Source of the DNA: Metabacillus sediminilitoris
GTDB taxonomy: Bacteria > Bacillota > Bacilli > Bacillales > Bacillaceae
Direction: 5' to 3'
Length of the DNA stretch: 64,000 nt
NCBI RefSeq assembly: GCF_009720625.1
Contig: NZ_CP046266.1
Span: 5,538,543 to 5,602,542 of the forward strand
A program made the position numbers and the translations under genes. Within the stretch, counting starts at the first letter, position 1; the number at the start of each line of letters is the position of its first letter. This document shows, piece by piece, positions 12,099-28,006 of the stretch. The notes under the pieces are model-generated. The model saw only the letters and a program-made list of their open reading frames with translations, was not told the origin of the DNA and did not search any database.

Positions 12099-13631
12099 AT
12101 GGACAGTAAGAAAAATATGGGAAACAGTGTTTTTATCATATCATTATTACTTACTCTCATTTTTATTGTATGGGGAGTCTTTTTTACAGATAATCTCGCC
12201 AAAGTCACCAACACCATTTATAATGGTTCGATTGATTACCTTGGGTGGGTTTATCTTGGTGTCACCCTCTTCTTTGTCATCTTCTCCATTTATTTACTGT
12301 TCTCTAAATATGGTGATATTCGGCTAGGGAGGAAAACAGACAAGCCTGATTTTAACACCGCATCCTGGCTCGCCATGTTGTTTGGTGCTGGTATGGGAAT
12401 CGGTATTGTTTACTGGAGTGTCGCTGAACCGGTTACCCACTACACCACCCCACCTTATGGGGAACCATTTACGGTGGAGGCAGCCAATACAGCTATGAAA
12501 TATACATTTTTCCATTGGGGCCTCGACCCTTGGGCGATTTACACAGTTATTGGTTTAGCCCTTGCCTTTTTCCAATATAACAAAAGACTGCCTGCAGCCA
12601 TCAGTTCGGCATTCTATCCGATACTTGGCGATAGAATATACGGACCGATCGGAAAAACCATTGATGTATTATCAATCTTCGCAACTGTCTTTGGAATCGC
12701 AACATCTTTAGGCCTTGGCGCCATGCAGGTCACGGCCGGAATGCATGAAATCTTCGGAATTCCCAATGTGTTATTCGTCCAGTTGATTGTTATTGCTGTT
12801 GCAACAGTCCTTTTTATCATCTCAATCAATACAGGTTTAGAGAAAGGAATCCAATACTTATCAAATGCAGCCATGATTTTATCTTTTGCAATCATGCTAA
12901 TGATTTTGATTGTCGGACCAACCTTGACGATTATTAAGGTTCTTTTTAATACAACCGGGCTCTATATCAGTGATTTTATTCATATGAGTTTACGGTTAAC
13001 ACCATTCGGCAAAGGAGAATGGATTGCATCATGGACCTTATTTTATTGGGCATGGTGGATTGCATGGGCACCTTTTGTCGGTATGTTTATTGCCCGGGTT
13101 TCAAGAGGAAGAACAGTAAAGGAGTTTGTTATTGGAGTGTTAATTGTTCCTACTCTCGGAACATGTTTATGGATGTCCATATTTGGCGGTTCCGCGCTTG
13201 AAATTGTGCAAAACACTGGCAGCCGTGATTTGGCCATGTATATTACCAAAAACGTTTCATTATCTATCTTTACCTTCTTTGATTATCTTCCATTAAGTTC
13301 TCTGCTGAGTATTTTGGGGTTTGCTGTCGTAACTATTTATTATATAACTGTTGCCGATACAGCCACCTTCGTATTGGGAATGCTAAGTGAAGGCGGAACA
13401 TTAAATCCTTCAAATAAAATTAAAATGACATGGGGAATCATTCAATCTGCTTTAGCTGCTGTCTTGCTTTTAGCCGGTGGTCTGAACGTTTTGCAAACAG
13501 CATCCATCGCAGCCGCTCTTCCCTTTGCCATTATTATGATCGTCATGAGCTTCTCATTATTAAAAGGTTTAAAAAGTGAAGTCGAAGTACACAGGAGTAA
13601 TAAAAGAAATATGCACCATTCTAAAAGTTAA
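12099..13631 (+). CDS. BCCT-family glycine betaine transporter, OpuD-like
   Basis: This sodium-coupled transporter family imports glycine betaine or related compatible solutes under osmotic stress. The protein has 510 residues and 12 membrane segments, like Bacillus OpuD (512). Conserved family features are GMGIGIVYWSVAEPVTHY, the substrate-site tryptophan-rich stretch WTLFYWAWWIAWAPFVGMFI and the following RVSRGRTVKEFV. The C-terminal tail is short and basic. The ribosome site AGGAGG precedes the ATG. The exact substrate cannot be settled by sequence alone. Confidence 0.9.
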   Translation: MDSKKNMGNSVFIISLLLTLIFIVWGVFFTDNLAKVTNTIYNGSIDYLGWVYLGVTLFFVIFSIYLLFSKYGDIRLGRKTDKPDFNTASWLAMLFGAGMGIGIVYWSVAEPVTHYTTPPYGEPFTVEAANTAMKYTFFHWGLDPWAIYTVIGLALAFFQYNKRLPAAISSAFYPILGDRIYGPIGKTIDVLSIFATVFGIATSLGLGAMQVTAGMHEIFGIPNVLFVQLIVIAVATVLFIISINTGLEKGIQYLSNAAMILSFAIMLMILIVGPTLTIIKVLFNTTGLYISDFIHMSLRLTPFGKGEWIASWTLFYWAWWIAWAPFVGMFIARVSRGRTVKEFVIGVLIVPTLGTCLWMSIFGGSALEIVQNTGSRDLAMYITKNVSLSIFTFFDYLPLSSLLSILGFAVVTIYYITVADTATFVLGMLSEGGTLNPSNKIKMTWGIIQSALAAVLLLAGGLNVLQTASIAAALPFAIIMIVMSFSLLKGLKSEVEVHRSNKRNMHHSKS

Positions 13632-13641
13632 TAAAATGTGG

Positions 13642-13676
13642 AAATCTCCCTGAGTCTGTTCAGGGAGATTTTTTTG
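13642..13676 (+). terminator. Terminator of BCCT transporter gene
   Basis: A 12-bp perfect stem (AAATCTCCCTGA and its complement) with a six-base loop is followed by seven T residues. Confidence 0.9.
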
Positions 13677-13749
13677 TTTGAATGAATGGTTGCTTTTAAA
13701 GCTGAGGCTACTTTAAATTGCCTGCTTAATTTAATATGAAAAAGCCTCT

Positions 13750-13790
13750 AATTTTTGGTACGGTTCACCTTGATGTGTCTAATTAAGGTT
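13750..13790 (-). repeat. rlmH-type attachment site E (distal end of cassette array)
   Basis: Read in the rlmH direction, the site has AACCTTAATTA, ten bases, then GGTGAACCGTACCAAAA. It matches the end of rlmH (GAACCTTATCATAA) with several changes, and the AACCTnATTTA-like element lies at exactly the same distance as in sites B and D. It marks the far end of cassette V and of the array as far as I can trace it. Confidence 0.6.
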
Positions 13791-14231
13791 TGTAAGATAT
13801 ATTATCTCTGAATAGACACGCACTTGATTACGTCCTTCTCGTTTTGCAGAGTATAAAGCTTGATCTGCTTTATTTAAAAGCTGATAAAGGGTTTCCTCTG
13901 TCGCTTTCGTTGCCTCAGCCACTCCACTGCTTAAAGTAACAGAAATAACTCCCTCTGTCGTAATGAGAGGCCGCGCTTCAACATGTCTGCGCAGCTGATT
14001 AGCTAACTCTTCACCTTCTAAACCTGTCCTTCCCTTCAATGCAAGGACAAACTCCTCCCCACCATATCGTGTAAATAGCATGCCTTCCTTCAACTGAGTT
14101 TGGCAAACCTTTATTACATGCATTAGCAATTGATCACCATTATGATGGCCATAGGTATCATTCACTTTTTTAAAAAATTCAATATCAACCAAAATGACTG
14201 TAAATGGTATTGCATCATTTTTGCTGCAGCA
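13779..14231 (-). pseudogene. GGDEF (diguanylate cyclase) domain fragment
   Basis: The frame encodes a nearly complete GGDEF domain: DAIPFTVILVDIEFFKKVND, then TYGHHNGDQLL, and the active-site RYGGEEFVLAL, ending NKADQALYSAKREGRNQV. There is no start codon with a ribosome site and nothing recognisable upstream of residue SKNDAIPF, so the sensory and N-terminal part is lost. The stop codon lies inside the terminal element of attachment site E. It is probably the truncated end of a gene at the cassette boundary. Confidence 0.7.
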
Positions 14232-14377
14232 AACTCTTGCTCACATTTTTATGTTTTTATGTTTATCCTACGTCATCTTTAGATCATTTTCATCATTCTC
14301 ATAGCAAACGGAAACTCATTTAGATATAAAAGCCACCAATACAGGAGAGTTTCGTTTAATAAAATAAGGCGTATCTA

Positions 14378-15358
14378 TTATCTCTTAACTAATTCACCCA
14401 TGACCCAGTTGGTTCTCGCACCGTTCACTCCATTACTTGGGCACTGGCCGTAATTTCCAGTTAATTCAGCCATAATCGTTTCTGCAAGGGGTTGATGGAC
14501 GTGCTGAGGTCGTTCAAAACTCCATTGCTCTTTTCCACTAGTTGTCGTCAAAACAATGGGCTCATCTCCAAAAGTGGAAAAGGTAATTTTACCTTTACTG
14601 CCGACGATTTCATTCACATCCACATTTTCAAAAGCAGAAAAACACCACTTCCCTACGCCATGGATTCCAGATTCAAATCGATATGTACCTGTCACAATAT
14701 CTTCCGCACGATAATAGCCTGCTTGATTTGAAGCAAAACCTTGAGCTTCCTTAATAGGTCCCAGCAAAAAATCTAATATATCGAGCGTATGACTGGCTAA
14801 ATCAAAAAACAGTCCCCCTCCGGACACTTCAGGTTGTAGCCTCCACGGGAGACTTTTTGAATCCTTCACGTCTTCCGAAGCTTTTTGGTACTGTGTTGTT
14901 GATACGAAACGCACGTCACCGATCACTTTACTTTCCAACAAATCTTTTATTTTAACAAATCTAGGCTGTGCCCTTCGGTAGTAAGCAACATATAAAGGAA
15001 CGCGAGCTTCTTTGCAAGCAGCGATCATTTCATTGCATTCCACAAAATTAAGTGCCATTGGCTTTTCTACATAAACAGGTTTTCCTGCCTTGGCAACTTT
15101 AATAGTATATTCCTTATGTGAACCCGGCGGTGTCGCAATATAGACAGCATCAACATCTGGATCGTTAATAAGTGCGTCAGCATCATCATACCATTTTGGA
15201 ACATTATGTCTTTTTGCATAGTCTTTCGCAAGTTCACCGGTTCTCCGCATTACGGCAACCAACTCTGAATTTTCAACTTTTTGGAATGCTGGACCACTTT
15301 TCACTTCTGTTACATCACCGCACCCAATAATACCCCAACGAACTTTTTCAAATTTCAT
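14378..15358 (-). CDS. Gfo/Idh/MocA-family NAD(P)-dependent oxidoreductase
   Basis: The family oxidises or reduces sugars, inositols and related polyols. The N-terminal Rossmann motif is WGIIGCGDVTEVKSGPAF; the family catalytic-lysine motif is VYVEKPMALN near residue 95. The C-terminal half has the GGGLFFDLASHTLDIL segment typical of the substrate domain. At 326 residues it has normal length. It sits alone inside cassette V with no sugar operon nearby, so the substrate is unknown. Confidence 0.88.
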   Translation of the reverse strand: MKFEKVRWGIIGCGDVTEVKSGPAFQKVENSELVAVMRRTGELAKDYAKRHNVPKWYDDADALINDPDVDAVYIATPPGSHKEYTIKVAKAGKPVYVEKPMALNFVECNEMIAACKEARVPLYVAYYRRAQPRFVKIKDLLESKVIGDVRFVSTTQYQKASEDVKDSKSLPWRLQPEVSGGGLFFDLASHTLDILDFLLGPIKEAQGFASNQAGYYRAEDIVTGTYRFESGIHGVGKWCFSAFENVDVNEIVGSKGKITFSTFGDEPIVLTTTSGKEQWSFERPQHVHQPLAETIMAELTGNYGQCPSNGVNGARTNWVMGELVKR

Positions 15359-15846
15359 GAAAATCGTTCTCCTCCTCTTGTCTCAACTTATTTTTTTCTT
15401 GTTCTCTACTGTAGCATTATGTGTCTTGCTCTTACTATAAAACTTCTCTATTAGATGTGTCCATCCTATAGAGAATGTTACAGTATGACTCTTTTCTTGG
15501 TTCGGAGGTGAACTAATTGATATTTATAGTTTTTAGTGACTAGAAACTTAAAAACCATTTCTATTCAAATACTCATATATAATTCAACTTTTACTCTCTA
15601 GTACCTAAATAAATTTTCATCGAGCGGTAAATGTTTTTCAGCCTACCCCCAAAATCTCAGAATAACGATCTAAGATTTTGTTGATAGTCATTTTTTGTCG
15701 AAAGAATTTGCCTTTGTCCGCTGGAAATGACACATTTAGGATAACTTCTAGTTAACAATACTGTGAATTTATTTATTGTATAAAATTAATTTATTAAAAA
15801 TATTGTTATACATTTTTCGACACTACACCTATGGGGAGGAATCTAT
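15359..15846. other. Upstream region of the polysaccharide enzyme gene
   Basis: This 490-base AT-rich divergent spacer holds promoters for the oxidoreductase (left) and the large glycan enzyme (right). I see no repeat or RNA gene. The spacing is unusually long, which may mean regulated expression. Confidence 0.4.
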
Positions 15847-18800
15847 GTGAATCGAGTTTTTAGGTGGATTGTCAGATCCTTGTTTGCACCTGTCACTGGA
15901 AATGCAGGAGCAGTTGCGAGTACACTTGGTTTTTTTCTGGCCTTTTTACCCTTAGATAGTTTAAGAATTCCATTATTGCTTGCTTTTTCACTTTTGTTTC
16001 GTCTTAATATTATCGCCTTATTCCTTGGAACGTTGATTACGATTTTTATCCCTAATATTCGTGATTTACCCCTTCTGGATTTACTTGTATTGGAAGATTA
16101 CTGGCTATTTTCTGCCCTTAAGACTAAAATACAATCTTCACAAATCCTTGCATCAGGTGCCTTCGGAGGCCTAATTGGTCTAGTCTGTTATTTTTTCTTC
16201 CACTGGTTTTACAATTTAGGGCTGAAAAAAAAGGAACGAAGTCAAGAACATGTTTTTCTTGATCCTGCAAAAAGACGCTGGTCAATTATTAAACGAATGA
16301 GTGCAGGCTTTACTATTTTTATTGTTTTAGTATCGACTATTTTTATTGAAAGCCTTAATACTAATCCAGTATTTCCTGAGCTGCAATTGAATAAAAGTAC
16401 AGGAAAGAGCGGGATTGAGCCGATTCATACAAGTTTCAGTGAAGAAGAGATTGCTTCACAGGTTCAAAAGACAAATCTTTCCCCTCTTATTCAAAAAAAT
16501 ATGGGTTTATTGAACAAAAAACAAATGGAGACCAAACAAGAAGTTTATGGTTTTTACGTCAATTGGGATGAAAACAGCAAAACTTCTTTCAAAAAAAATA
16601 TAGATTCTATTACAACATTAGTGCCGGAATGGTTGCAGCTTACTCCTAACCTTACTCTTAAAGCCAGCACTGATCGCTCAATTGTTGCAGACGCAAAAGC
16701 GCATGATATAAAGATTCTTCCATTAGTTAATAATTTTATTAACAATAAATGGGATGGCGATATCCTGCATCGGTTATTTACTACCCCCGGCGCTGAAGAC
16801 CGTTTTATTAAAAATATGCTGGCTTATGTGAGAACCAATGACTTTGACGGGATTAATATAGATTTTGAAGATATCAATCCAAATGACAGAGATCATTTCA
16901 CCCGATTCATGGATAAAGTTTATAAAGCCTTTCATCAACATGAGCTTATGGTCACAGTGGATGTCCCGCCGAATAACAATAGTTTTGACTATGCCGCTTT
17001 AGCAAATAGCACAGACCGCATGATTGTCATGCTATATGACCAGCACCACTCCATGAGTAACCCTGGACCTGTAGCTCCAAATGATTGGGTAAAAGAGAGT
17101 TTAAACGAACTCAATATTCCTTCCGAAAAATTGATTGTGAGTTTAGGAAGCTACGGTTACGACTGGGAAGAAAACTCCAGCAAGCCCGCAGTTGACATGA
17201 CGTTTCGGGATATCTTGGAATTGGGCAGTGGAACCAATCTCAAAATCCATTGGAATAAGGAAACAGGAAACCCTTATTTACGATATAGAAAAAATGGAAA
17301 AAACCATATTGTTTGGTTTTTAGATGCTGCTACATTTTATAATCAAATGAAGTTGGCTATAGATAGCGACTCAAGAGGAATAGCGCTTTGGCGTCTCGGT
17401 TCTGAAGATCCTTCTATCTGGAATTACATTAACAAACCAGAGGATATCCTTAATCCATCCAATGCCCTTAAAACCGTGGCAAGTCCTGAATCTGGCCGCT
17501 ATACAGGTGCCGGGGAGATTTTAAAAGTTACTGCATCCGAAAAAGGCAAAAGAACGATTCAATTGGATTCAAATGGGATGGTACAAACTGAAACCTATAT
17601 TAAATTACCGAAGCCTTTTGAGATGACCCGGTATGGCAAATCTCAAAAGAAGGAAGTCGTCCTTTCCTTTGATGACGGTCCGGATCCAACCTATACACCA
17701 CAAATATTGGACATTTTGGAAAAGAATCATATTAAAGGAACCTTCTTTATTGTTGGAGAGAATGCTTTGATGCATCAAGAGATAGTTAAAAGGATACATC
17801 AGGAAGGCCATGAAATTGGCAGCCATACATTTACTCATCCTGATATTTCGTCCATCACGCCATCTCGTTTGAGAATGGAACTAAATGCAAATCAGCGTCT
17901 ATTTCAAGAAATAACAGGCTATACGATGACCCTTTTCCGCCCGCCTTATGTATCGGATACGGAACTGGGCAAAAAGAGCGAACAGGTGCCTATATTGCAA
18001 GCACAGGAAATGGGTTATACCCTGGTTGATAAATCGATTGACTCTGGCGATTGGCAAAAACGTTCCAGCACTGAAATTGTGAATCAGGTACTGGAGCAGC
18101 TGCCAGAAGGAAATGTGATTTTACTGCACGATGCTGGCGGTGACCGCTCCAACACTGTAAAGGCCTTGCCTATTATTATTAAAGAACTTAAAAAGCGGGG
18201 CTACACCTTTACCACCACTGCTGATCTAATTGGAAAAAGTGATAGTCAAATTATGCCCCCTGCTGTTCAGGACAGCCCTTATTCGGTCTATAACAAGGCT
18301 GTATTCAAGGTCATACAAGGCTGGCACTCAGGACTAAGCTTCCTGTTCTACTCAGCTATCCTTTTAGGAATCTTGCGACTGATTATCTTCATTTTCCTTT
18401 CTAGAAGACAGGTAAAAAGATATAAAGAGATCCAAGTCGACCCTAGCTTTACACCTTTTGTCAGTGTCGTTATTGCTGCCTATAACGAGGAAAAAGTAAT
18501 TTGTAAAACAGTTAATTCAATTTTATCCAGTGATTATCCAGCTTTTGAGATACTGATTATCGACGATGGATCAAAGGATGATACTGCTGTTATTATTCAA
18601 AAAATCTATGCAAACCATCCACTCGTCAGATTAATTAAAAAAGACAATGGTGGAAAATCTTCCGCTGTTAATCTTGGTTTTAAAGAAGCAAGAGGGGAAA
18701 TCGTGGTTGCTCTTGACGCGGATACACTCATCGCTGAAGATGCCATCTCATTGCTTGTTAACCATTTTAAAAATAAAAGTGTTGCAGCTGTTTCAGGTAA

Positions 18801-19551
18801 TGTAAAGGTCGGCAATAAGGGGAACCTTCTTACAAACTGGCAGCATATCGAATATGTGACAGGCTTTAACTTAGAGAGAAGGGCCTTTGCAGCTCTAAAT
18901 TGCATTACGGTTGTACCAGGTGCGATCGGCGCATGGAGAAAGACAGCGGTAGAAGAAGCTGGATACTTTAAAGAGGATACACTCGCAGAGGATACCGATA
19001 TCACTCTTACTCTTTTACGAAATGGGAAAAAGATTGAATTTGAAGAAAAGGCTTATGCCTTTACAGAAGTACCGGAAGATATTAAAAGTCTGGCAAAACA
19101 ACGTTACCGATGGGTTTATGGTACGTTACAATGCTTATGGAAACATCGTGAGGCTTTATTCAATAAAAAACATAACTCATTAGGATATATCGCCCTTCCA
19201 AACATGTGGCTTTTCCAATATATTTATCAAACAATATCTCCTCTTGCAGATTTATTGTTCATTATAGCCCTTTTTAACACACAGCCTGAAATTGCAGTTA
19301 TTGTGTTTATTCTATTTTACTTGCTGGATTTCTTTACTTCACTATATGCGTTTCGTTTGGAGAAAGAAAGTCCTAAACCACTACGTTCATTGTTTTTGCA
19401 ACGAATCTTGTACAAGCAGCTTATGACTTATGTGGTGATAAAATCCATCTTTTCGGCAATAAAGGGAGTAACCGTTGGTTGGAATAAACTAAAACGAAAA
19501 GGTAATGTAACTCAGGAAACCTCTATTGTGGAGGTTAAGGAAACTATCTAA
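15847..19551 (+). CDS. Trifunctional exopolysaccharide protein: DUF2062-like membrane domain, GH18, polysaccharide deacetylase and GT2 synthase
   Basis: A single 1,234-residue membrane protein joins activities that are separate in PgaABC/IcaADBC systems. Residues 1-175 hold a DUF2062-like membrane domain and another membrane segment. A GH18-type domain starts near residue 230, with the catalytic pattern DGINIDFE near 334. A CE4 deacetylase lies at about 600-800: SFDDGPDP, metal-binding HTFTH near 660, FRPPY and LLHD. A membrane segment at about 835-855 leads to a family 2 glycosyltransferase with IIDDGS (905), DAD (957), AEDTD (1048) and QRYRW (1085), then C-terminal membrane helices. I infer synthesis, export-side trimming and N-deacetylation of a beta-linked GlcNAc polymer. 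The start is GTG after GGGGAGGA. Confidence 0.9.
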   Translation: MNRVFRWIVRSLFAPVTGNAGAVASTLGFFLAFLPLDSLRIPLLLAFSLLFRLNIIALFLGTLITIFIPNIRDLPLLDLLVLEDYWLFSALKTKIQSSQILASGAFGGLIGLVCYFFFHWFYNLGLKKKERSQEHVFLDPAKRRWSIIKRMSAGFTIFIVLVSTIFIESLNTNPVFPELQLNKSTGKSGIEPIHTSFSEEEIASQVQKTNLSPLIQKNMGLLNKKQMETKQEVYGFYVNWDENSKTSFKKNIDSITTLVPEWLQLTPNLTLKASTDRSIVADAKAHDIKILPLVNNFINNKWDGDILHRLFTTPGAEDRFIKNMLAYVRTNDFDGINIDFEDINPNDRDHFTRFMDKVYKAFHQHELMVTVDVPPNNNSFDYAALANSTDRMIVMLYDQHHSMSNPGPVAPNDWVKESLNELNIPSEKLIVSLGSYGYDWEENSSKPAVDMTFRDILELGSGTNLKIHWNKETGNPYLRYRKNGKNHIVWFLDAATFYNQMKLAIDSDSRGIALWRLGSEDPSIWNYINKPEDILNPSNALKTVASPESGRYTGAGEILKVTASEKGKRTIQLDSNGMVQTETYIKLPKPFEMTRYGKSQKKEVVLSFDDGPDPTYTPQILDILEKNHIKGTFFIVGENALMHQEIVKRIHQEGHEIGSHTFTHPDISSITPSRLRMELNANQRLFQEITGYTMTLFRPPYVSDTELGKKSEQVPILQAQEMGYTLVDKSIDSGDWQKRSSTEIVNQVLEQLPEGNVILLHDAGGDRSNTVKALPIIIKELKKRGYTFTTTADLIGKSDSQIMPPAVQDSPYSVYNKAVFKVIQGWHSGLSFLFYSAILLGILRLIIFIFLSRRQVKRYKEIQVDPSFTPFVSVVIAAYNEEKVICKTVNSILSSDYPAFEILIIDDGSKDDTAVIIQKIYANHPLVRLIKKDNGGKSSAVNLGFKEARGEIVVALDADTLIAEDAISLLVNHFKNKSVAAVSGNVKVGNKGNLLTNWQHIEYVTGFNLERRAFAALNCITVVPGAIGAWRKTAVEEAGYFKEDTLAEDTDITLTLLRNGKKIEFEEKAYAFTEVPEDIKSLAKQRYRWVYGTLQCLWKHREALFNKKHNSLGYIALPNMWLFQYIYQTISPLADLLFIIALFNTQPEIAVIVFILFYLLDFFTSLYAFRLEKESPKPLRSLFLQRILYKQLMTYVVIKSIFSAIKGVTVGWNKLKRKGNVTQETSIVEVKETI

Positions 19552-19565
19552 TGGAAACTTCGCAC

Positions 19566-19597
19566 AGGTCTTTCCCATTTTGGGAAGGCCTTTTTTA
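19566..19597 (+). terminator. Terminator of the exopolysaccharide gene
   Basis: Arms AGGTCTTTCCCA and TGGGAAGGCCTT (one mismatch) are followed by six T residues. Confidence 0.8.
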
Positions 19598-19612
19598 TAT
19601 AATTTAGAACAG

Positions 19613-19645
19613 AAAAAGGATCACCTTCTTTTGGTGACCCTTTTT
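19613..19645 (-). terminator. Terminator of the Thr-rich protein gene
   Basis: Arms AAAAAGGATCACC and GGTGACCCTTTTT (one mismatch) form a stem followed by T residues on the minus strand, close to the convergent terminator of the exopolysaccharide gene. Confidence 0.7.
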
Positions 19646-19652
19646 GAATGAA

Positions 19653-20381
19653 TTACATTTCCTTTCCGTTGTTTCCCTTTTGTTCCAGATGACTCGCAGC
19701 CTTTTCTTGTGCGGCTGTAGAAACTTGTTGTCCACGGTTGACTGTTGTTGTGGTTGCAGTTGTTGAATTAGTTCCCTTCGGCGTGGGTGCAGTGGTTCTC
19801 GTTGGTGCTTTTGGGCTTGTCGTAGGCTTCGTTGGTGCTTCAGGCTTTGCGGCTGCATTTGTTGAACTAGTTTCCGTCGCTGTGGATGCAGTCGTTCTCG
19901 TTGCTGCTTTTGGGCTTGTCGCAGGTTTCGTTGTTGCCTCAGGCTTTGTGGTTCCACTTGTTGTTTTAGTTCCGGTCGCCGTGGATGCAGTCGTTTCTGT
20001 TGGTGCTTTTATACTTGTCACAGTTACCTTTTTTACAGCAGGATTTGTTGTAGTACTCTTGCTAATTTTTTCCGTATCCTGTTGAATGTCTGCTGTGGCA
20101 ATCTCACTCTTGTCTCTATTTTTAAAAGCCTCTTGGGAAGCAGGAATATCATGAGAAATTTTCGTTTGACCGTCTTTCACATTAGATGTTGGCGTTTGAT
20201 CTTTCACCGCTTTTTCTTCATGGTCAATTACATCCGCTTTTTTTTGGACTCCGGATATAATTAAAGCATTATCTTTTGTTAATCGTTTAGAAGATTCATC
20301 GACTAACAACGCGTTGGTGACAGAAAACGTAACAGATCCCGCTAATACCATAGCAAGGGCTCCCTTGGTTGGTTTGTTCAT
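19653..20381 (-). CDS. Secreted Thr/Ala/Pro-rich repeat protein
   Basis: A 242-residue protein with an N-terminal signal-like segment (MNKPTKGALAMVLAGSVTFS) and a low-complexity second half. From about residue 120 a 33-residue unit is repeated two to three times, with the pattern KPEATTKPATSPKAATRTTA; the DNA period is 99 bases (19795, 19894, 19993). Such Thr/Pro-rich stretches act as extended, often glycosylated stalks or wall-spanning linkers. No anchor motif (LPxTG, SLH, LysM) is visible. It is convergent with the exopolysaccharide gene in the same cassette, so a matrix or surface role is plausible. I do not recognise a named family. Confidence 0.75.
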   Translation of the reverse strand: MNKPTKGALAMVLAGSVTFSVTNALLVDESSKRLTKDNALIISGVQKKADVIDHEEKAVKDQTPTSNVKDGQTKISHDIPASQEAFKNRDKSEIATADIQQDTEKISKSTTTNPAVKKVTVTSIKAPTETTASTATGTKTTSGTTKPEATTKPATSPKAATRTTASTATETSSTNAAAKPEAPTKPTTSPKAPTRTTAPTPKGTNSTTATTTTVNRGQQVSTAAQEKAASHLEQKGNNGKEM

Positions 20382-20557
20382 ATAATTCCCCTTATGTTTT
20401 TAGTAATCGTATTAAAAGTATACGAACGAACCAAAATTTATTATGGGGGTATAAAAAATTGGGATTCTTTTTATTACCCATTCAACTAGTTCAGTTACCT
20501 GTATATATATTGAACTTCTTAAACTAAACATCTTTTATATCTACATTCAACTAAAAA

Positions 20558-20607
20558 AACCTCATTTACTTATGGTAAGGTTCTCCATAGTACATCTAAA
20601 TGAGGTT
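20558..20607 (-). repeat. rlmH-type attachment site D with terminal inverted repeat
   Basis: Read in the rlmH direction: AACCTCATTTA (20597-20607), ten bases, GGAGAACCTTACCATAAG (encoding GEPYHK), TAA, and TAAATGAGGTT (20558-20568). The two 11-base elements are perfect inverted repeats. This is the junction of cassettes IV and V. Confidence 0.75.
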
Positions 20608-20680
20608 AATAAACTTTGTATCCCTGTAAAAAAACTTATGGTTCTAGCTAGAAAATCGAAAAATGATGGTAAGCATTTCT

Positions 20681-21169
20681 TTAAGTCATGACCTTTTTAA
20701 AAGATCTTTCATGCTTAAGCAGCCATTCCTTCCTCCATAAACCACCTGCATAGCCGGTTAATTTTCCATTTGAACCGATAATTCGATGACAAGGAATCAC
20801 AATACTTAACTTGTTTTTACCATTTGCACTTCCGACTGCTCTGATGGCTTTTTCATTCCCAATCAAAACAGCAATATCCTTATATGATCCTGTTTTAGCG
20901 TAGGTTATTCTAGTTAAAGCGGTCCACACTGTTTTTTGAAAATTCGTACCCTCAAAGATATAGGGAAACGTAAATTCTTGACGTATACCTTTAAAATATT
21001 CATCAAGTTGGTCAAAACAATCCATTAATACCTTGGGAACTTCGTCCTGCATGACATTTTCTGTTTTATCCCGTTCAGAGAACATGATTGAACAGATGCC
21101 TTCATCTGTTCCCCATATTTCTATAACTCCAATCGGAGATTCGTATTCTAATTTATGTAGTTTACTCAT
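20681..21169 (-). CDS. ogt: O6-methylguanine-DNA methyltransferase
   Basis: This suicide enzyme transfers alkyl groups from O6-alkylguanine to its own cysteine. The active-site motif IVIPCHRIIGSNGKLTGYAG is complete. I choose the ATG at 21169 (MSKLHKLEYESP), preceded by GGAGGT, rather than an in-frame ATG ten codons upstream; its start then overlaps the end of alkA by eight bases. It is the last gene of the adaptive-response operon of cassette IV. Length (162 residues) is normal. Confidence 0.93.
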   Translation of the reverse strand: MSKLHKLEYESPIGVIEIWGTDEGICSIMFSERDKTENVMQDEVPKVLMDCFDQLDEYFKGIRQEFTFPYIFEGTNFQKTVWTALTRITYAKTGSYKDIAVLIGNEKAIRAVGSANGKNKLSIVIPCHRIIGSNGKLTGYAGGLWRKEWLLKHERSFKKVMT

Positions 21170-22079
21170 ATAAGGACCTCCATAGATAAAAGGTAGCATA
21201 TGCTTGCCAACCTTCCCAATTCATTGACATTTCTCTTATTTCCTCTATTGTCGGTTTTCGCTCAATCCCTAACTGAAGCATTAATGCATGATGAAGGCCG
21301 ACATCCGCTATTGGAAAAGCAGATGGATAGTGTAAACATTTCATCATCACATAATCTGCCGTCCATGCTCCTATACCTCTAATACTCATTAAAGATTTTT
21401 GAATATGTTGATAATCTTGTTTTTGAAGCAAAATTTCTTTTGACAATTCGCCACTTGTCATGGCTTTCGCGACGCCAATAATATATTCAGCCTTCCTAAC
21501 AGTAAATTGAAGTTTCCTTAAATCATCCACTTCTATGGATGCAATTTTTTTGAATTCAGGAAATAACCAGAACGTGTCTCCCTCGATAGTAAAACTTTCT
21601 CCGAATTGTTCAACGAAACGTTTCTTTAATGTATATGCAAATGTTAAATTGATTTGTTGTCCAATAATCGCCCAGGTCAGCGCTTCAAATAGATCTGGAA
21701 TACATATTATCCGTAAACCATAATATTTAGGGGCAATTTGTTTCAAAATCATATCTTTACTGGCTACTTCATAAAAATCCCCCAACGCTTGATCCAAATC
21801 AAACCATTCCCATATATAGGATACTACTTTTTCAAGAGTGCTTATAGATGGGGTACTCATTGGGAATTCAACTTGAATTGAATGTGAGGTGCTTCCTATT
21901 TTTAATAAAACCACTTCTCCGTTCACTTTTACCAGTTTATATAAATAACCATCTTTTATTAGATGCATTACTTCCTGCTCAGATCTACCTAAGAAAACTA
22001 AACACTCTTTAAAATTAAATTCGGGAGGCGGATAAATCTCAATAGATAAACCTTTATCGATCCATTTCATTTCTGTCAT
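21162..22079 (-). CDS. alkA: AlkA-type DNA-3-methyladenine glycosylase II
   Basis: This enzyme excises alkylated purines to start base-excision repair. The helix-hairpin-helix of the HhH-GPD superfamily is IRGIGAWTADYVMMKC, followed by the catalytic aspartate in FPIADVGLHHAL. The 305-residue length and the N-terminal AlkA-like beta domain fit. The gene overlaps adaA by four bases (ATGA), so the two are translationally coupled. Confidence 0.93.
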   Translation of the reverse strand: MTEMKWIDKGLSIEIYPPPEFNFKECLVFLGRSEQEVMHLIKDGYLYKLVKVNGEVVLLKIGSTSHSIQVEFPMSTPSISTLEKVVSYIWEWFDLDQALGDFYEVASKDMILKQIAPKYYGLRIICIPDLFEALTWAIIGQQINLTFAYTLKKRFVEQFGESFTIEGDTFWLFPEFKKIASIEVDDLRKLQFTVRKAEYIIGVAKAMTSGELSKEILLQKQDYQHIQKSLMSIRGIGAWTADYVMMKCLHYPSAFPIADVGLHHALMLQLGIERKPTIEEIREMSMNWEGWQAYATFYLWRSLYE

Positions 22080-22675
22080 TCCTTATTTAAGAGCGTTCGA
22101 TATTCACTTGGTGAGGAATTTTTTAAACGTCGAAACACCTTATAAAAATTTGAAGGACTTTGAAATCCGACCTCATAGCAAATCTCAAGGTTCGTTCGAT
22201 CTGTACTTGTAAGAAGATAAGCCGCTTTATCAACTCGTATTTTTTCCAAATAGGTACGAGGAGTTTCTGAAGTTTCTTGTTTAAATAACCTTTCAAGATA
22301 ATAAGAACTTACACCAACATGATTTGCAATATCCTGTAATTCAAGCTTTTGTTTATAATGATTTACTAAGAACGCAACGACATTTCTGACAAGTTCAATA
22401 TGTGGAGAATGATCAGATTCTGGTTGACATCTTTTGCAAGCACGAAAACCAGCTTTTTCAACTTCTTTGATATCATAGAAGAATTCTACATTTATTTTTT
22501 TCGGCTTTCTTGATCTACAGGAAGGACGGCAGTAAATTTTGGTTGTTTTCACTGCCGTAAAAAATAACCCATCATATTTACTATCACAAGCAATGATTTT
22601 CTCCCACATTTCTTCAAAAGAAAGATTGATATTAGCCCCCAATATACTCTCCGTCCTTTCTAGTTTAATCTTCAT
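22076..22675 (-). CDS. adaA: AdaA: methylphosphotriester-DNA alkyltransferase and AraC-type activator
   Basis: AdaA takes methyl groups from DNA phosphotriesters onto a zinc-bound cysteine and then activates the alkylation response. The N-terminal Ada domain has YDGLFFTAVKTTKIYCRPSC, then FRACKRCQPE, giving four zinc cysteines. The C-terminal AraC domain has LQDIANHVGVSSYYLERLFK and GFQSPSNFYKVFRR. The 199-residue length is that of the separate Bacillus AdaA. Overlap of 11 bases with the upstream gene places it in a four-gene operon. Confidence 0.93.
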   Translation of the reverse strand: MKIKLERTESILGANINLSFEEMWEKIIACDSKYDGLFFTAVKTTKIYCRPSCRSRKPKKINVEFFYDIKEVEKAGFRACKRCQPESDHSPHIELVRNVVAFLVNHYKQKLELQDIANHVGVSSYYLERLFKQETSETPRTYLEKIRVDKAAYLLTSTDRTNLEICYEVGFQSPSNFYKVFRRLKNSSPSEYRTLLNKE

Positions 22676-23435
22676 ATAAATGTGAAGTATCCTTAAACTC
22701 TACTAATCGCTCCGCATTCTTTTCCAAAAAAGCAATATAATGGTCAGATAGAGCATTTCCGAAACTAAAACGTTTAACACCTAATTCCCTAAGCTTATTA
22801 CAATTCGTTAGTCCAGGTAAAGATAATACATTAAGTGGTGCATTTACAATCATAGTGATTTTTCTTATCTCATCATGATCGATCAATCCAGGAACAAATA
22901 TTCCACTAGCTCCACTCTCCACATAGGACTTAGCTCGATCAATAGTCTCTAGTAATGGTTTATTGCTCTGTAAATAAGTGTCCGTTCTAGCGTTAATATA
23001 AAAATTTTTATAACCATTTTTATCTAGAGCCGATCTAATTTTTGATAAAAGGTTACAGTGCTCCAATATATCTCTTAACCCTTTTTGTTTTTTCAGTGAA
23101 TCCTCAATATTTATTCCAGCAACTCCAACATCTGCTGTTTTTAAAACATTGGTAACAATTTGTTCCGTGCCATCACCATAGCCTGCCTCAATATCTGCGG
23201 AGACAGGTATTTTCACATTTTCTGTAATTGTTTTGATGATTCCAAGATGTTTTTCAAAATCAATTAATTCACCATCAGCATATCCAAAAGAATTAGCAAT
23301 CCCCCAGCTCGTCGTGCCAATCGCTTTAAATCCCACTTTCTCGAGTGTTAAGGCGGATAGGATATCCCACGCATTTCCTAAAAATAAAACTTCCTTTGAC
23401 GTATGCAGCTCATTGAATTTCTGAATTTTATTCAT
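22665..23435 (-). CDS. Isocitrate lyase/PEP mutase-superfamily protein
   Basis: The 256-residue protein has the superfamily phosphate/metal site pattern VSADIEAGYGDG and a TIM-barrel layout (GTTSWGIANSFGYADGE, INARTDTYL, PGLTNCNKLRELGV). Members include PEP mutases, 2-methylisocitrate lyases and many uncharacterised carbon-carbon lyases. The Cys-containing KKCGH loop of true isocitrate lyases is absent, so it is more like the uncharacterised carboxyvinyl-type branch. It is the first gene of the adaA-alkA-ogt operon, overlapping adaA by 11 bases; this pairing is unusual and its repair role, if any, is unknown. Confidence 0.85.
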   Translation of the reverse strand: MNKIQKFNELHTSKEVLFLGNAWDILSALTLEKVGFKAIGTTSWGIANSFGYADGELIDFEKHLGIIKTITENVKIPVSADIEAGYGDGTEQIVTNVLKTADVGVAGINIEDSLKKQKGLRDILEHCNLLSKIRSALDKNGYKNFYINARTDTYLQSNKPLLETIDRAKSYVESGASGIFVPGLIDHDEIRKITMIVNAPLNVLSLPGLTNCNKLRELGVKRFSFGNALSDHYIAFLEKNAERLVEFKDTSHLYED

Positions 23436-23905
23436 TTTATTGCCTCCTAATGGTTGTTGGACTCATTTTAACAAGGAAGCTATCTTCTTTTCGTCCTCAT
23501 TCTTGCTCTTATGGTCTATGAAAATGAAAAAGAGAAATTTATTCAATTCCTCTTAAAAAAACTCATTTACTTATGATACGGTTCACCGTAAGAATACAAT
23601 GTACATAGTTAGTTTATAACAAAAAGTATTTATATCTATATAATCTCTTCCCCACCAATTAGTGTGGGCTCTTAGGTTTCCTGCTCTAACAAAATAAAAA
23701 AAATACTCCATTAATATTTATTAATATTCTTTTCGATGTGGTAAAATATTTTGCGTTAGGGAAACTTTTTTTTGATAGTAATGCATATAATGCAAATAGT
23801 CCAAAATCAAACATACAATTTTTTTTTGTACTTATTTTTTACCTAAGGCAAAAAAGTTTATATAAGAAAAAACAACCTAAATATTTAAAAGGGAGGAGTA
23901 GTCGA
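23436..23905. other. Spacer with attachment site C
   Basis: This divergent spacer holds promoters for the alkylation-repair operon (left) and the DoxX gene (right) together with attachment site C at 23559-23587. An upstream in-frame extension of the DoxX gene exists but has no ribosome site. Confidence 0.5.
23559..23587 (-). repeat. rlmH-type attachment site C
   Basis: In the rlmH direction the site reads GGTGAACCGTATCATAAG, TAA and TAAATGAGTTT, so it encodes GEPYHK-stop like rlmH. The 11-base element preceding site D is not seen before this copy. It is the rlmH-proximal end of cassette IV. Confidence 0.75.
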
Positions 23906-24442
23906 ATGGCAATTCAATCAAAAGTAAATAAAAAAAGATGGTTGTTTCCATCTCTTATTGTTTTAATGCGTATTCTCTTTGGAATTGGTTGGCTATTAGC
24001 TGGAGTAACCAAAATTTCCGAAAAATTATGGTTTAAAGAACCGGGGGTATTTCTGAATGAATATTTAATCAGTGCATTAGAGAAGCCAAATGTCACATTA
24101 TTTTATAAAGTTTTCATTGAAAACGTATTATTAGAATATGTGATGACTTTAAACTATGTCATTCCTATCGTTCAAATTATTCTTGGTGTACTTATTATAA
24201 TGGGATTACTTACTATACCATCAATCTTAATCTGTCTCTTTATGCACATTAACTTCATACTTTCTGGAAATATGAATTTAATGAGCCTTGTTCTTTATAC
24301 GAGTGCGTTTACATTAATCATTTTTAGAACGAAAATTTATCATTTAAGTCTTGATAAGTATTTTAATCTAGATTTATGTTTACAACCAATGAAAATAAAA
24401 GAGAAAACAACAACTCCATGCCACCTGAGAAAGAAATGCTGA
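23906..24442 (+). CDS. DoxX-family membrane protein
   Basis: The 178-residue protein has four membrane segments. Its first segment carries the DoxX pattern RILFGIGWLLAGVTKISEK, and the last segments include MGLLTIPSILICLFMHINFI. The start is the ATG at 23906 after GGGAGGA; a longer frame upstream has no such site. DoxX/DoxD-like proteins are linked to quinone-dependent sulfur or oxidative chemistry, but most are uncharacterised. It is the only larger gene of cassette III. Confidence 0.85.
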   Translation: MAIQSKVNKKRWLFPSLIVLMRILFGIGWLLAGVTKISEKLWFKEPGVFLNEYLISALEKPNVTLFYKVFIENVLLEYVMTLNYVIPIVQIILGVLIIMGLLTIPSILICLFMHINFILSGNMNLMSLVLYTSAFTLIIFRTKIYHLSLDKYFNLDLCLQPMKIKEKTTTPCHLRKKC

Positions 24443-24463
24443 GTAACACCTAATCTATTACCA

Positions 24464-24562
24464 TTAGTTAAATATGTCTATTAACATTAAAGTAATCCAA
24501 TACAGCAACCCAAGGATATTAAATAATACAAATAAATATAATAAAATTCTAGTAACCTTCAT
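24464..24562 (-). CDS. 32-residue single-span membrane peptide
   Basis: A short frame encodes a peptide beginning MKVTRILLYLFVLFNILGLL and ending ITLMLIDIFN. It is almost entirely one hydrophobic helix with a basic N-terminus. AAAGGAAG lies eight bases before the ATG, which supports translation. Its 3' end is convergent with the DoxX gene. It could be a membrane toxin of a type I system or a small regulatory peptide; I see no antisense RNA that would settle this. Confidence 0.5.
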   Translation of the reverse strand: MKVTRILLYLFVLFNILGLLYWITLMLIDIFN

Positions 24563-24646
24563 TGTCATTACTTCCTTTACTTATTGATGTTAATAGTGTT
24601 TCATAGCAATTATATTCTAAAATAACCTTAACATTACATTAAAGTA

Positions 24647-24693
24647 TATAATAAATTACCGTCACTAAAAATTAGTGACGGTAATTTATTATA
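24647..24693. terminator. Perfect 22-bp inverted repeat
   Basis: Twenty-two-base arms (core ACCGTCACTAA and TTAGTGACGGT) with a three-base loop. This is the strongest stem in the cassette region. It probably works as a bidirectional terminator at the end of cassette III. Confidence 0.75.
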
Positions 24694-24765
24694 CTTACAT
24701 CATTACGATTAATTACAATAAGAAAATTGAATAATTCTTTATTCTTTTCTTAAAGGAACTTTGTA

Positions 24766-24807
24766 CTACTTATGATACGGTTCACCGTATTTTATCTAAA
24801 TGAGGTT
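24766..24807 (-). repeat. rlmH-type attachment site B with terminal element
   Basis: In the rlmH direction: AACCTCATTTA, ten bases, GGTGAACCGTATCATAAG then TAG. The first element is at the same distance as in sites D and E. The stop codon is TAG and the following TAAATGAGG motif is missing. Confidence 0.75.
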
Positions 24808-24969
24808 TTTATTTTCTCATTTTTAAAAATAGCATAGTTGAAATGTCTCTTGATATAATCAATCATATGTGAAAAGTCTATACAGCTAAAGAACATTACT
24901 TGCAGCTTTAAAGAAAAGCCTATTCAAGATTTAATGTCCTTGCGTAGGCTTGTTTGCTTTTTGGAAAAA

Positions 24970-25012
24970 AACCTTATTTACTTATGATACGGTTCACCAT
25001 TTCATTCTATTT
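24970..25012 (-). repeat. rlmH-type attachment site A
   Basis: In the rlmH direction the copy reads GGTGAACCGTATCATAAG, TAA and TAAATAAGGTT (24970-24980), encoding GEPYHK-stop. Upstream, CCTCTTAAATAGA resembles the terminal element in a degenerate form. It is the distal end of cassette I. Confidence 0.75.
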
Positions 25013-25025
25013 AAGAGGCCGAAAT

Positions 25026-25322
25026 CTATAATTTTAATGGCTGCCCCTCAAATGCTTTAACCTCTAATGGTGCAGTCAAAAAGTCCTTTGCATTTGCTAC
25101 GAACTTGGTAAAGTGCTCGCTTGAGTTATGATTGGCAACAGCTTGCATATCCTGCCAAACTTCCACCATCGTAAATACATTTTCGCTTTCTGTATCTTTT
25201 TGAAGGCGATATGAAATATTTCCGTTTTCTTCTCTTGAGGCAGCAATTAACGGCTGAATTTCCTCTAGAAACAAATCCTGTTTCGCTGGATTTATATGGA
25301 ATGTTGCATGAATAATAATCAT
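25026..25322 (-). CDS. Antibiotic biosynthesis monooxygenase (ABM) domain protein, putative quinol monooxygenase
   Basis: A 98-residue single ABM domain (dimeric ferredoxin-like fold). The family pattern is IHATFHINPAKQDLFLEEIQ, then ENGNISYRLQKDTE and FTMVEVWQDMQAVANHNSSE with the conserved active-site histidine. Relatives such as YgiN/YdhR-type proteins oxidise quinols or protect against quinones. It follows the nitroreductase gene after 31 bases and forms a pair with it, which fits a quinone/electrophile detoxification operon. Confidence 0.88.
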   Translation of the reverse strand: MIIIHATFHINPAKQDLFLEEIQPLIAASREENGNISYRLQKDTESENVFTMVEVWQDMQAVANHNSSEHFTKFVANAKDFLTAPLEVKAFEGQPLKL

Positions 25323-25353
25323 CGAACGTCAATCCCTTCTTATTTACATTTCA

Positions 25354-26001
25354 TTACTTCCATTGCGCGACTTGATCAATAGGCAGACGAACTGATGGAT
25401 GTCCGTTATCTGCTGCTTTACCAATAGAGATTAACATAACCGGAACATAACGGTCTTTATCCAATCCAAATGCTTCTGCAATTTTGTCTTTTTCATATCC
25501 GCCGATTGGATTTGTATCGTATCCATAAGCGCGGGCAGCAAGCATGAACTGCATGGATACAAGTCCGCCATCCACTAAAACAACATCTTTCAAATCTTCA
25601 CGTGAAATCGTTTCAAAATAGCCTGAAAAGGAAGCATGAATTCCTTCTTTTACTTCTAAAGGCATAAATCCCTTCTCTACAGCTGCGCCGTAGATTTCTT
25701 CAAATTTCTCAAAATTATTCATATCACCAAAAACAGCAATAACTGCTGATGATGTTTCAACTTGAGTTTGGTTAAAACGTGCCAGTGGGGCAAGTGTTGC
25801 TTTTGCCTCAGGACTTTCAATCACAAGAAAGCGCCATGGCTGCATATTAACAGAAGAAGGAGCACGTGTTGCTAATGTAAGAATCTCTGTCATTTCTTCA
25901 TGGCTGATTTTTACGGACTTATCATAATTTTTAATGGAACGGCGTTCTGTCACAATTTTATTAAAATCATTCGTTATTTGTGCTGTAGTCATAGAAGTCA
26001 T
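25354..26001 (-). CDS. Nitroreductase-family NAD(P)H flavoprotein
   Basis: The 215-residue FMN enzyme has the family N-terminal VTERRSIKNYD (FMN phosphate contacts), RAPSSVNMQPWRFLVI, and C-terminal GGYEKDKIAEAFGL. It resembles Bacillus YdgI/YodC-type nitroreductases, which reduce nitroaromatics and quinones. AGAGGAG precedes the ATG by nine bases. It is divergent from a TetR gene and probably repressed by it through the inverted repeat at 26070-26105. Confidence 0.9.
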   Translation of the reverse strand: MTSMTTAQITNDFNKIVTERRSIKNYDKSVKISHEEMTEILTLATRAPSSVNMQPWRFLVIESPEAKATLAPLARFNQTQVETSSAVIAVFGDMNNFEKFEEIYGAAVEKGFMPLEVKEGIHASFSGYFETISREDLKDVVLVDGGLVSMQFMLAARAYGYDTNPIGGYEKDKIAEAFGLDKDRYVPVMLISIGKAADNGHPSVRLPIDQVAQWK

Positions 26002-26069
26002 TGTTATATTCTCCTCTTTTCGTTTTGATTATTGTTTATAATATTTGAGTTCTTTAAATACTTTCCATT

Positions 26070-26105
26070 CATTTTAGACAAAAATATTATAAAATGTCTA
26101 AAATG
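26070..26105. promoter_or_regulatory. Putative TetR operator over the nitroreductase promoter
   Basis: CATTTTAGACA and its perfect complement TGTCTAAAATG are separated by 14 bases. The centre contains a TATAAT-like -10 sequence on the minus strand, so a bound regulator would block transcription of the nitroreductase pair. It lies about 120 bases from the divergent TetR-family gene. Confidence 0.55.
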
Positions 26106-26226
26106 TTAACTACGTATAACCTTACTCCACTTTCTTTTAGTTGTAAACTGAAAAGAATTGGAATATCAAAATTTGAATGAACACCATTGGATTATGATAT
26201 AATTTCCTGATAAAGGGAGTGGTAGT

Positions 26227-26889
26227 TTGAGAAAAATTGCACCTGATGAAAGACAGATGATGAGAAAAGCCTATGTAAAAAAGTTAATCCATGTCGTTCG
26301 GACTCAAGGATTCCTTTCCCTTACCATTCAAGATATCGCAAAAACGATGAATTTAAGCCGGGCTTCCTTGTATAACTACTTTTCTTCGAAGGAAGACATT
26401 ATTATGGAGCTGACTAATCTCTGTATTGATTATATAAATGAAGCTGGTCAAACCATTTCCAATGAAGAGTTATCTTATCCACTTCGTTTCCAAAAAGTGT
26501 TTGAACAAGCTGTTTTTTCAGCTGTCTATGCTTCAGATATTTATTTGGCTGATTTAAAAACAAGCTGTAGGCATCTTTATGAAAAAAAGATGCAATCAAG
26601 AAAAGAACAACTTTCTGCCATTCATACCTTTTATCGAAATGGCATGAAAGCAGAAGTTTTTAATCAATTGAATCCCTCAATCTTAATTATTCAGGATGAA
26701 ACTGTACTAGGGAAATTGGTGAATACAGCCTTTTTAGTGGACGAGGAAATGTCATTGAAACAGGCTCTATTCGATTATTATGTGGCGAAGAAAACCCAGA
26801 TCCTAAAGCCCGAGTACTTGCAAAACACGGAGCATGAAGATATTAATGCAATGGTGGAAGGCATCCTCAAAAAACTGGCAGCCATCTAA
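26227..26889 (+). CDS. TetR-family transcriptional regulator
   Basis: The 220-residue protein has an N-terminal helix-turn-helix LTIQDIAKTMNLSRASLYNY followed by FSSKEDIIMEL, as in TetR repressors, and a variable ligand-binding C-terminal domain. The start is TTG with AAAGGGAG upstream. It is divergent from the nitroreductase-ABM pair, which it probably controls in response to a quinone or other electrophile. Confidence 0.9.
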   Translation: MRKIAPDERQMMRKAYVKKLIHVVRTQGFLSLTIQDIAKTMNLSRASLYNYFSSKEDIIMELTNLCIDYINEAGQTISNEELSYPLRFQKVFEQAVFSAVYASDIYLADLKTSCRHLYEKKMQSRKEQLSAIHTFYRNGMKAEVFNQLNPSILIIQDETVLGKLVNTAFLVDEEMSLKQALFDYYVAKKTQILKPEYLQNTEHEDINAMVEGILKKLAAI

Positions 26890-26900
26890 TGACTATAAAA

Positions 26901-26936
26901 AAGACTCTTACTCGCTGGTAAGAGTCTTTAGTATTT
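26901..26936 (+). terminator. Terminator of the TetR gene
   Basis: Eleven-base perfect arms AAGACTCTTAC and GTAAGAGTCTT with a T-rich tail. Confidence 0.85.
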
Positions 26937-27071
26937 TTTGTTGGCAACTATACGTTTTTAAACGAGCTTTATATTTTCTGTTGAATTCTGTTTAAAATGG
27001 TTGATAGTGTTTGATTTAAATTCTTTAATTCCTTCATGTCTAAGGACAGATTTTCTAGCAATTTTGATTGA

Positions 27072-27103
27072 AAAGAACTGTAGACAAATGCCTACAGTTC
27101 TTT
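27072..27103. terminator. Hairpin between TetR gene and rlmH
   Basis: Twelve-base arms AAAGAACTGTAG and CTACAGTTCTTT with an eight-base loop, 50 bases beyond the rlmH stop codon. It may end rlmH transcripts and lies inside cassette I near its rlmH-proximal end. Confidence 0.6.
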
Positions 27104-27146
27104 GTTTTTGACATCTTATTGCTTAAGGAATTAAAACTACTTTTAA

Positions 27147-27175
27147 AACCTCATTTACTTATGATAAGGTTCCCC
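27147..27175 (-). repeat. Primary attachment site in the 3' end of rlmH
   Basis: The last rlmH codons read GGGGAACCTTATCATAAG, TAA (GEPYHK-stop), followed by TAAATGAGGTT sharing the stop. This is the same rlmH segment in which staphylococcal SCC elements integrate (core TATCATAA). The other five sites are copies of it. Confidence 0.75.
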
Positions 27176-27634
27176 CCGATTAATCCGAAAAGCACGATAA
27201 ACCTGCTCTAATAAAATCAACCTCATCAACTGATGCGGAAATGTCATCTTCGAAAACGAAAGCGTATCATTTGCTCTCTTCATGACAGTTTTACTTAATC
27301 CAAGCGATCCGCCAATGACAAATGTTACTTTGCTTTTTCCGTATGTCGCGAGTTGATCGAGATCTTTTGCGAGTTGCTCTGATGATTTCATTTTACCTTC
27401 GATGGCAAGGGCAATGACATGTGTGTCATCGCTTATTTTACTGAGGATTCGCTCTCCCTCTTTTTCTTTCACTTGCTCCATTTCTGTTTCACTTAAGTTT
27501 TCTGGTGCCTTTTCGTCTGGCAGCTCAATGATGTCTAATTTTGCATAGATTGAAAGTCGTTTTAAGTATTCGTCAATTCCTTGCTTTAAATATTTTTCTT
27601 TCAGCTTACCAATTGTCACGATTGAGATGTTCAC
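27155..27634 (-). CDS. rlmH: RlmH, 23S rRNA pseudouridine-1915 N3-methyltransferase
   Basis: RlmH methylates pseudouridine 1915 in helix 69 of 23S rRNA on assembled 70S ribosomes, using S-adenosylmethionine and a SPOUT knot. The 159-residue protein begins [20 protein letters not shown], has the knot segment [10 protein letters not shown], and ends [13 protein letters not shown]. The start is GTG at 27634, matching known Bacillus RlmH; an upstream in-frame codon would add six unrelated residues. Its 3' end is the insertion site of the cassette array, and the insertion keeps the reading frame intact. Confidence 0.97.
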
Positions 27635-27667
27635 GCTTGTTCCCCATTTCAAAACGAAAGATAAAAG

Positions 27668-27963: not shown

Positions 27964-27976
27964 ACCCTTATTTTCC

Positions 27977-28006
27977 GCAAAAAAGGGAGCTGAAAATTAG
28001 CTCCCT
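27977..28006 (-). terminator. htrC terminator
   Basis: A stem with arms AGGGAGCT and AGCTCCCT overlaps the htrC stop codon and is followed by T residues on the minus strand. Confidence 0.75.

Follow-up and report, generated by a model that had tools for sequence, protein, structure and literature searches.

Integrons hold small gene cassettes in tandem at a fixed site, and their recombinase is not encoded in the cassettes. Among the systems closest to the locus described here is the staphylococcal SCC, which, in the passages of PMC3637587 and PMC10061031 available to us, has the same target at the 3' end of rlmH, the same rlmH-end repeats and terminal inverted repeats, and the same tandem arrangement, and includes ccr-less remnants and composites. 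The Enterococcus cassette chromosome likewise shares the rlmH target, dyad att sites of ~50 bp and a conserved TATCATAA; its elements are defined by ccrAB, with fewer than five att matches per genome, and the word Bacillus is absent from the accessible text of that paper (PMC6222049). SCC-like islands with large serine recombinases (LSRs) have also been described in several Bacillota, among them Bacillus, Listeria, and Planococcus, and mostly occupy the same site behind rlmH; these islands were selected for primase and recombinase genes, and some are composites of tandemly inserted islands (PMC10061031). The available passages of PMC10061031 contain no minimal recombinase-free cassettes, crossover position, or end classes.

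We analyzed the final 64 kb of the single-contig 5.60-Mb genome of Metabacillus sediminilitoris (the window), in which rlmH is followed by a series of segments separated by copies of its own 3' end. Among named relatives, Metabacillus malikii and M. halosaccharovorans have the rlmH most similar to that of the window.

Site anatomy and segments of the array

The features of the array, in window coordinates and in order from rlmH, are as follows.

27155..27634, minus strand: rlmH (ORF, 159 aa), present in 21/21 Metabacillus genomes
27155-27172: first recombination core of the array, formed by the five terminal codons of rlmH plus its stop (EPYHK-stop)
24996..27172, minus strand: segment 1, 2177 bp, with ABM monooxygenase, nitroreductase, and TetR regulator
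24978..25021, minus strand: site 2, core 24978-24995, left arm 24996-25021 (GCCTCTTAAATAG type)
24784..24995, minus strand: mini-cassette, 212 bp, matched class A ends, terminal complementarity 12/14, no ORF of at least 70 aa
24766..24809, minus strand: site 3, core 24766-24783, left arm AAAACCTCATTTAGAT...ACGGT at 24784-24809
23585..24783, minus strand: DoxX-like cassette, 1199 bp, class C ends (TACAAAGTT ... AACTATGTAC)
23738..24442, plus strand: DoxX-like membrane protein gene (ORF)
23567..23610, minus strand: site 4, core 23567-23584, left arm 23585-23610
20584..23584, minus strand: DNA-repair cassette, 3001 bp, with PEP mutase family, Ada/AraC, AlkA-like glycosylase, and Ogt-type methyltransferase genes
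20566..20609, minus strand: site 5, core 20566-20583, left arm TTAACCTCATTTAGAT...ATGGA at 20584-20609
13767..20583, minus strand: segment 5, 6817 bp, flanked by one good and one decayed site
13749..13792, minus strand: site 6, decayed core 13749-13766, class A-like left arm
12099..13631, plus strand: BCCT-like transporter gene (family read off the sequence), chromosomal flank of the array

With up to three mismatches, GAACCTTATCATAAGTAA matches the window five times, always on the minus strand, at 27155 (the rlmH end), 24978, 24766, 23567, and 20566; the chance expectation is 0.09 against these five, rlmH copy included, and 0/100 shuffles reached five. A decayed copy with its core at 13749-13766 (GAACCGTACCAAAAATTA) scored 31 with a site matrix that reached at most 11.7 on the reverse strand of the stretches taken from 21 Metabacillus genomes; since forward sites served to train the matrix, the strand contrast is the sole independent part of this comparison. 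Reverse-strand scores of 19.4 and 26.8 elsewhere (L193, L195) correspond to the mirror half of a forward dyad. These data confirm the rlmH-tail repeats that an earlier note on this DNA had reported downstream of the gene. Across the whole 5.60-Mb genome, GAACCKTAYCATAAGTAA has four exact matches, all in this region and including rlmH, and eight with up to two mismatches (five in this region and three elsewhere), against five for a backward control. One copy at 206113, with one mismatch, was treated as chance because no site was called there (L198).

The copies at 24766 and 20566 also possess a left arm, AACCTCATTTAGAT, and the site is therefore a dyad of ~50 bp, more than an 18-bp repeat. The upstream AACCTCATTTAGAT mirrors the downstream AAATGAGGTT, with the dyad centered on the GA of ACGGT-GA-ACCGT, and the class A junction takes the form AACCTCATTTAGATnnnnnnACGGT-GA-ACCGTATCATAAGTAAATGAGGTT. 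Further end types pair TAGAGGCAAAAA with TTTTTTGCCTCTT, TGATGGTAAA with TTTACCAT, and ACAAAGT with AACTATGT. The repeats behind rlmH are best read as recombination sites. That they are instead conserved terminators or regulatory elements is barely conceivable: the arm is T-rich, and the predicted fold of the 212-bp unit plus the core that follows it is better than that of shuffled sequences (z -2.65; 3/200 as good), but the exact core is confined to this region of the genome, window positions 13000-28000 give no Rfam match at the gathering threshold, and neighbors are swapped precisely at the site. The neighbor swap, together with the breakpoint and shared-element identity data given below, already contradicts a terminator function.

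Three of the five segments are clean units, namely the 212-bp, DoxX-like, and DNA-repair units. Segment 1 (27172-24996) looks chimeric or composite because it starts with a class A end and finishes with a mismatched class B end; an 82% nucleotide match over 1872 bp lies on contig 138 of another Metabacillus genome (G004), with no site in evidence there. The genes of segment 5 (ORF 19653-20381, a 1234-aa gene, Gfo/Idh, and GGDEF) occur behind rlmH in congeners such as G005, where they stand away from intact sites, and the segment is therefore mostly genus backbone and no clean cassette. The earlier note had read the array as five serially inserted elements; with segment 1 chimeric in appearance and segment 5 mostly backbone, that reading is not supported as it was worded.

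Relatives of the DoxX-like unit with sites at both ends are found in G001, in the first position, and in Alkalihalobacillus deserti (L060), and another in G017 has a decayed 5' site; close copies are present in 3/21 Metabacillus genomes, all behind rlmH. A Pfam search with the window protein (23738..24442) gave no match, and a relative (L111:16315-16854) reached 21.6 bits against Pfam DoxX, under the cut-off of 23.6. The DNA-repair unit is bounded by sites in G000 and in G001 too, and in G012 a site marks its end. Of the 21 Metabacillus genomes, 8 have a close AlkA gene, and the seven that could be placed all lie on the rlmH side, 2.5-77 kb away; in several congeners the repair genes have a backbone location and intact sites are absent. 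Given this proximity to rlmH, in several cases without intact sites, the unit may have arisen when a cassette captured an operon of the backbone, or it may be a cassette of long standing. The best nucleotide matches of the window's DoxX-like and repair cassettes are only 73-78%, so that proof of recent transfer rests on relatives.

Other observations concern the distal part of the array. ORF 19653-20381 contains three 99-bp direct repeats (window 19748-20044). The 1234-aa ORF (window 15847-19551) appears by reading to combine glycosidase-like, polysaccharide deacetylase, and glycosyltransferase parts, and DNA homologous to it stands behind rlmH in G005 and G011. A protein 91% identical to the BCCT-like transporter also follows the last site in G012. 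The family names BCCT, AhpC/AhpF, and glycosyltransferase fusion were assigned by reading, not by search.

Spread of the site and transfer of cassettes

We sampled 99 loci, comprising 21 Metabacillus genomes (one per species, 15-78 kb behind rlmH) and 78 others (up to 10 kb). A further directional site was present behind rlmH at 38/99 loci (14/21 Metabacillus and 24/78 others). The search for the core across Bacillaceae that the earlier note had asked for found the pattern GARCCKTAYCAYAARTRR in 80/80 family genomes, with at least two matches in 34/80; some second matches are away from rlmH, and the reversed pattern matched once in all. Sites bounded 74 units in total (L010 and L011 being dropped as duplicates of G009 and G005), of which 66 lack an LSR, defined as no LSR profile match above 150 bits, and eight carry one; because the flank of 78 loci was at most 10 kb, large recombinase-bearing elements are under-counted and the tally is biased to small units. 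Another 13 loci with an LSR at rlmH and no second site in the scanned stretch fall outside these eight. The LSR-free units have a median of 2.7 kb and range from 212 bp to 16.8 kb, and two of the 66 (L024, L045) hold an LSR fragment below 150 bits.

The ends of a unit belong together: terminal complementarity within units averaged 9.31/14, against 7.92 (sd 0.20) in shuffled pairings, a value reached in 0/400. With every core read in its own frame, that of G003 included, EPYHK-stop is encoded at 99/99 rlmH-adjacent sites and 47/74 internal sites, as expected if selection acts on the first copy only. In the rlmH of G003 (L130:18506-19027), the G run that precedes the core is shorter by one G, and the gene reads past the normal end; the missing G may be a sequencing error. 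The idea that distal sites are older and more decayed was rejected (19 vs 19 pairs, Wilcoxon p 0.30), and the insertion in age order implied by the earlier note is consequently not upheld.

Core sites were also noted away from rlmH. In L180, L181, L188, and L193 they are preceded by a short rlmH-like half site, and these are probably secondary insertion sites; in L182, L183, L184, L187, and L194 a cassette-type left arm lies upstream. In three cases, L190, L193, and L195, the locus contains the genuine rlmH of the genome concerned.

Pfam annotation of 40 proteins chosen from the 115 listed cassette proteins revealed a general adaptive mix. The 40 include radical SAM/SPASM proteins; ABC, FecCD, and periplasmic-binding transport parts; a sulfotransferase; a histidine kinase; diguanylate cyclases; a DDAH-like enzyme; a transglutaminase; an APH-family kinase; and the defense-like GmrSD, Schlafen AlbA_2, and Roc-COR. 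Across arrays, 125 ORFs run with rlmH and 81 against it. One cassette gene (L111:8958-9473) encodes a Cass2 domain, which the Pfam entry presents as an effector-binding protein associated with integrons.

Turning to movement between genomes, six element pairs across distant hosts are 92-99% identical at the nucleotide level within the element and 68-77% in rlmH: Bacillus sp. PAMC26568 (L012) with Paenisporosarcina (L076), G003 with Terrilactibacillus (L072), G014 with Alkalihalobacterium (L040), G016 with Fictibacillus (L059), G001 with G004, and G001 with L012. A seventh pair, G007/G009, is uninformative for the breakpoint. In five of the six, identity starts at the G of the central GA (GAACC); in G003/L072 it starts within the G run just before GA, and upstream of the run 46/55 positions agree. 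The change of identity at GA implies that each cassette brings along its own version of the five final codons of rlmH, stop included. Two pairs, G003/L072 and G014/L040, bear recombinases. Two matches are recombinase-free with unrelated neighbors on both sides, one within the genus (G001 1067-2406 with G004 3665-5006) and one between genera (G001 6901-9307 with L012 1877-4360); judged by these alignments, the two recombinase-free units have moved whole between genomes. Junctions are exact at the sites, and cassettes are missing or otherwise placed in relatives, the point on which the earlier note had proposed a test.

Homologous recombination after DNA uptake, with the ~50-bp sites serving as homology, might shuffle segments in the same manner, since the sites are repeated and near-identical, and it would be in keeping with the failure to find a Ccr-like recombinase in this genome. 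We regard it as improbable: crossovers would scatter across the conserved core, whereas the breakpoint is the G of the central GA in 5/6 informative pairs and lies in the adjoining G run in the sixth, and different end classes accompany different recombinase clades.

Recombinases and proposed mobilization in trans

An LSR search of the window array found none. The genome encodes a single LSR, a PF07508 protein at 4.07 Mb, which is weakly Ccr-like (CcrB 67 bits, CcrC 73 bits), and the genome search found no Ccr-like recombinase. The earlier description of the array as recombinase-free is thus borne out. Relatives carry Ccr-like LSRs at the same rlmH site. CcrB was the best NCBIfam model for 3/3 of the relatives' enzymes tested, the class A enzyme of G008 scoring 408 bits across 519 residues and the class B pair of G003 scoring 383 and 144 bits, all far under the 900 bits required for an equivalog. 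When 25 LSRs (above 250 bits and 1200 nt) were placed in a tree, the enzymes of classes A, D, E, and F and the larger class B enzyme formed separate clades, each with 100/100 support, and the smaller second class B enzymes another group (99/99); element end and recombinase are inherited together, so this agreement is expected and is no proof of recognition. The end of G019 was labeled F by a script rule, an artefact, as its end sequence differs and G019 groups with E in the tree.

Several side observations were made on these enzymes. In L130:16800-18566 and its relatives (G014, L040, L072, and G019), the recombinase is convergent with the adjoining rlmH, and its last codons cross the att core into rlmH on the opposite strand; integration would therefore change the C-terminus of the enzyme. 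The region C1:4745000-4795000 of G016 (L184, L185, L199) contains several LSR frames, some above 1000 aa with two recombinase-domain matches, as well as two core sites, far from rlmH. For the class A recombinase on plasmids, the sole records under E 1e-100 were two staphylococcal plasmids at 42% identity, and two site-pattern scans of viral contigs for phage carriage gave 0 matches.

Insertion of the array cassettes behind rlmH by Ccr-type LSRs is, in our assessment, likely, and the SCC-type site-specific insertion at the rlmH end proposed by the earlier note agrees with the precise junctions in relatives. As the best reading of the locus, we propose SCC-like cassettes that would be mobilized in trans. 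Short cassettes stand in tandem behind rlmH; each opens with its own copy of the five terminal rlmH codons and the stop, and the crossover likely falls at the central GA of the site. Ccr-type LSRs on related elements at the same site would move them, with class A and class C recombinases predicted to recognize those recombinase-free cassettes that share their end class, and movement would proceed via excised circles. As no Ccr-like recombinase was found in its genome, the window array would stay immobile until a new Ccr element arrives. This proposal draws on sequence comparison, namely the dyad sites, the identity break at GA, the two shared recombinase-free units, and the recombinase clades per end class. 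In the part of PMC3783163 available, CcrA/CcrB are cited as able to join attP with attP, a reaction that would suit reshuffling inside an array.

A less likely explanation is that the cassettes are Ccr elements after deletion of the recombinase, and that units lacking a recombinase are never mobile in their own right. The rlmH site does hold truncated recombinases in some loci (G006, L035, and L045, with a fragment in L024), chimeric ends such as those of segment 1 resemble deletions between elements, and the available part of PMC3637587 describes such remnants in staphylococci. Against this, the same recombinase-free unit is bounded by sites at both ends in two genomes with unrelated neighbors (G001/G004 and G001/L012), end pairs match within units, and no recombinase remnant was found in the window, except that the tail of one LSR, at its overlap with rlmH, gave a match.

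Relation to SCC and integrons

The window array inserts at the 3' end of rlmH with a regenerated tail, and direct and inverted repeats mark its element ends, segment 1 excepted. It has no ccr gene of its own and is for that reason no SCC member. The array is SCC-like in target and site anatomy and integron-like in use. Compared with SCC as presented in the passages cited above, the arrays here occur in several Bacillaceae genera, with units of 212 bp to a few kb that often hold one gene or operon; their cargo is general metabolic and regulatory, intact recombinase-free units recur across genomes, and there are several end classes with separate recombinase clades.

The likeness to integrons lies in small tandem cassettes, a fixed site, and a mover encoded outside the cassettes. 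The differences are a predicted serine rather than tyrosine recombinase (no tyrosine recombinase was found among ten array proteins scanned against Pfam), an att site inside a housekeeping gene, genes in both orientations, and, in the window array, no adjoining recombinase. Nor does the junction fit an attC-type site as generally defined: the junctions are dyads with their breakpoint at the GA of GAACC.

We found no description of small recombinase-free rlmH arrays in Bacillaceae, in a search that left most subscription papers and the preprint server outside. The earlier note's suggestion that such arrays were undescribed holds to this extent, for small recombinase-free Bacillaceae arrays in the literature searched; it fails for recombinase-bearing, partly tandem rlmH islands outside staphylococci, which the available passages of PMC10061031 show to be published.

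More broadly, it is an evenly balanced possibility that an integron-like platform for capturing genes, working by SCC chemistry, is common to the Bacillaceae; in it the rlmH end would be a universal socket, genes and operons would circulate across genera and families as recombinase-free, tail-carrying cassettes, and roaming Ccr enzymes of several end specificities would move them in trans and then leave. The arrays suggest that SCC is a specialized branch of a broader Gram-positive cassette system, for which they supply the exact site and breakpoint together with a proposed recombinase-to-end code. They make testable the question of whether a once-visiting recombinase can mobilize a whole array of unrelated genes, and they offer a simple annotation rule for spotting acquired single genes behind rlmH.
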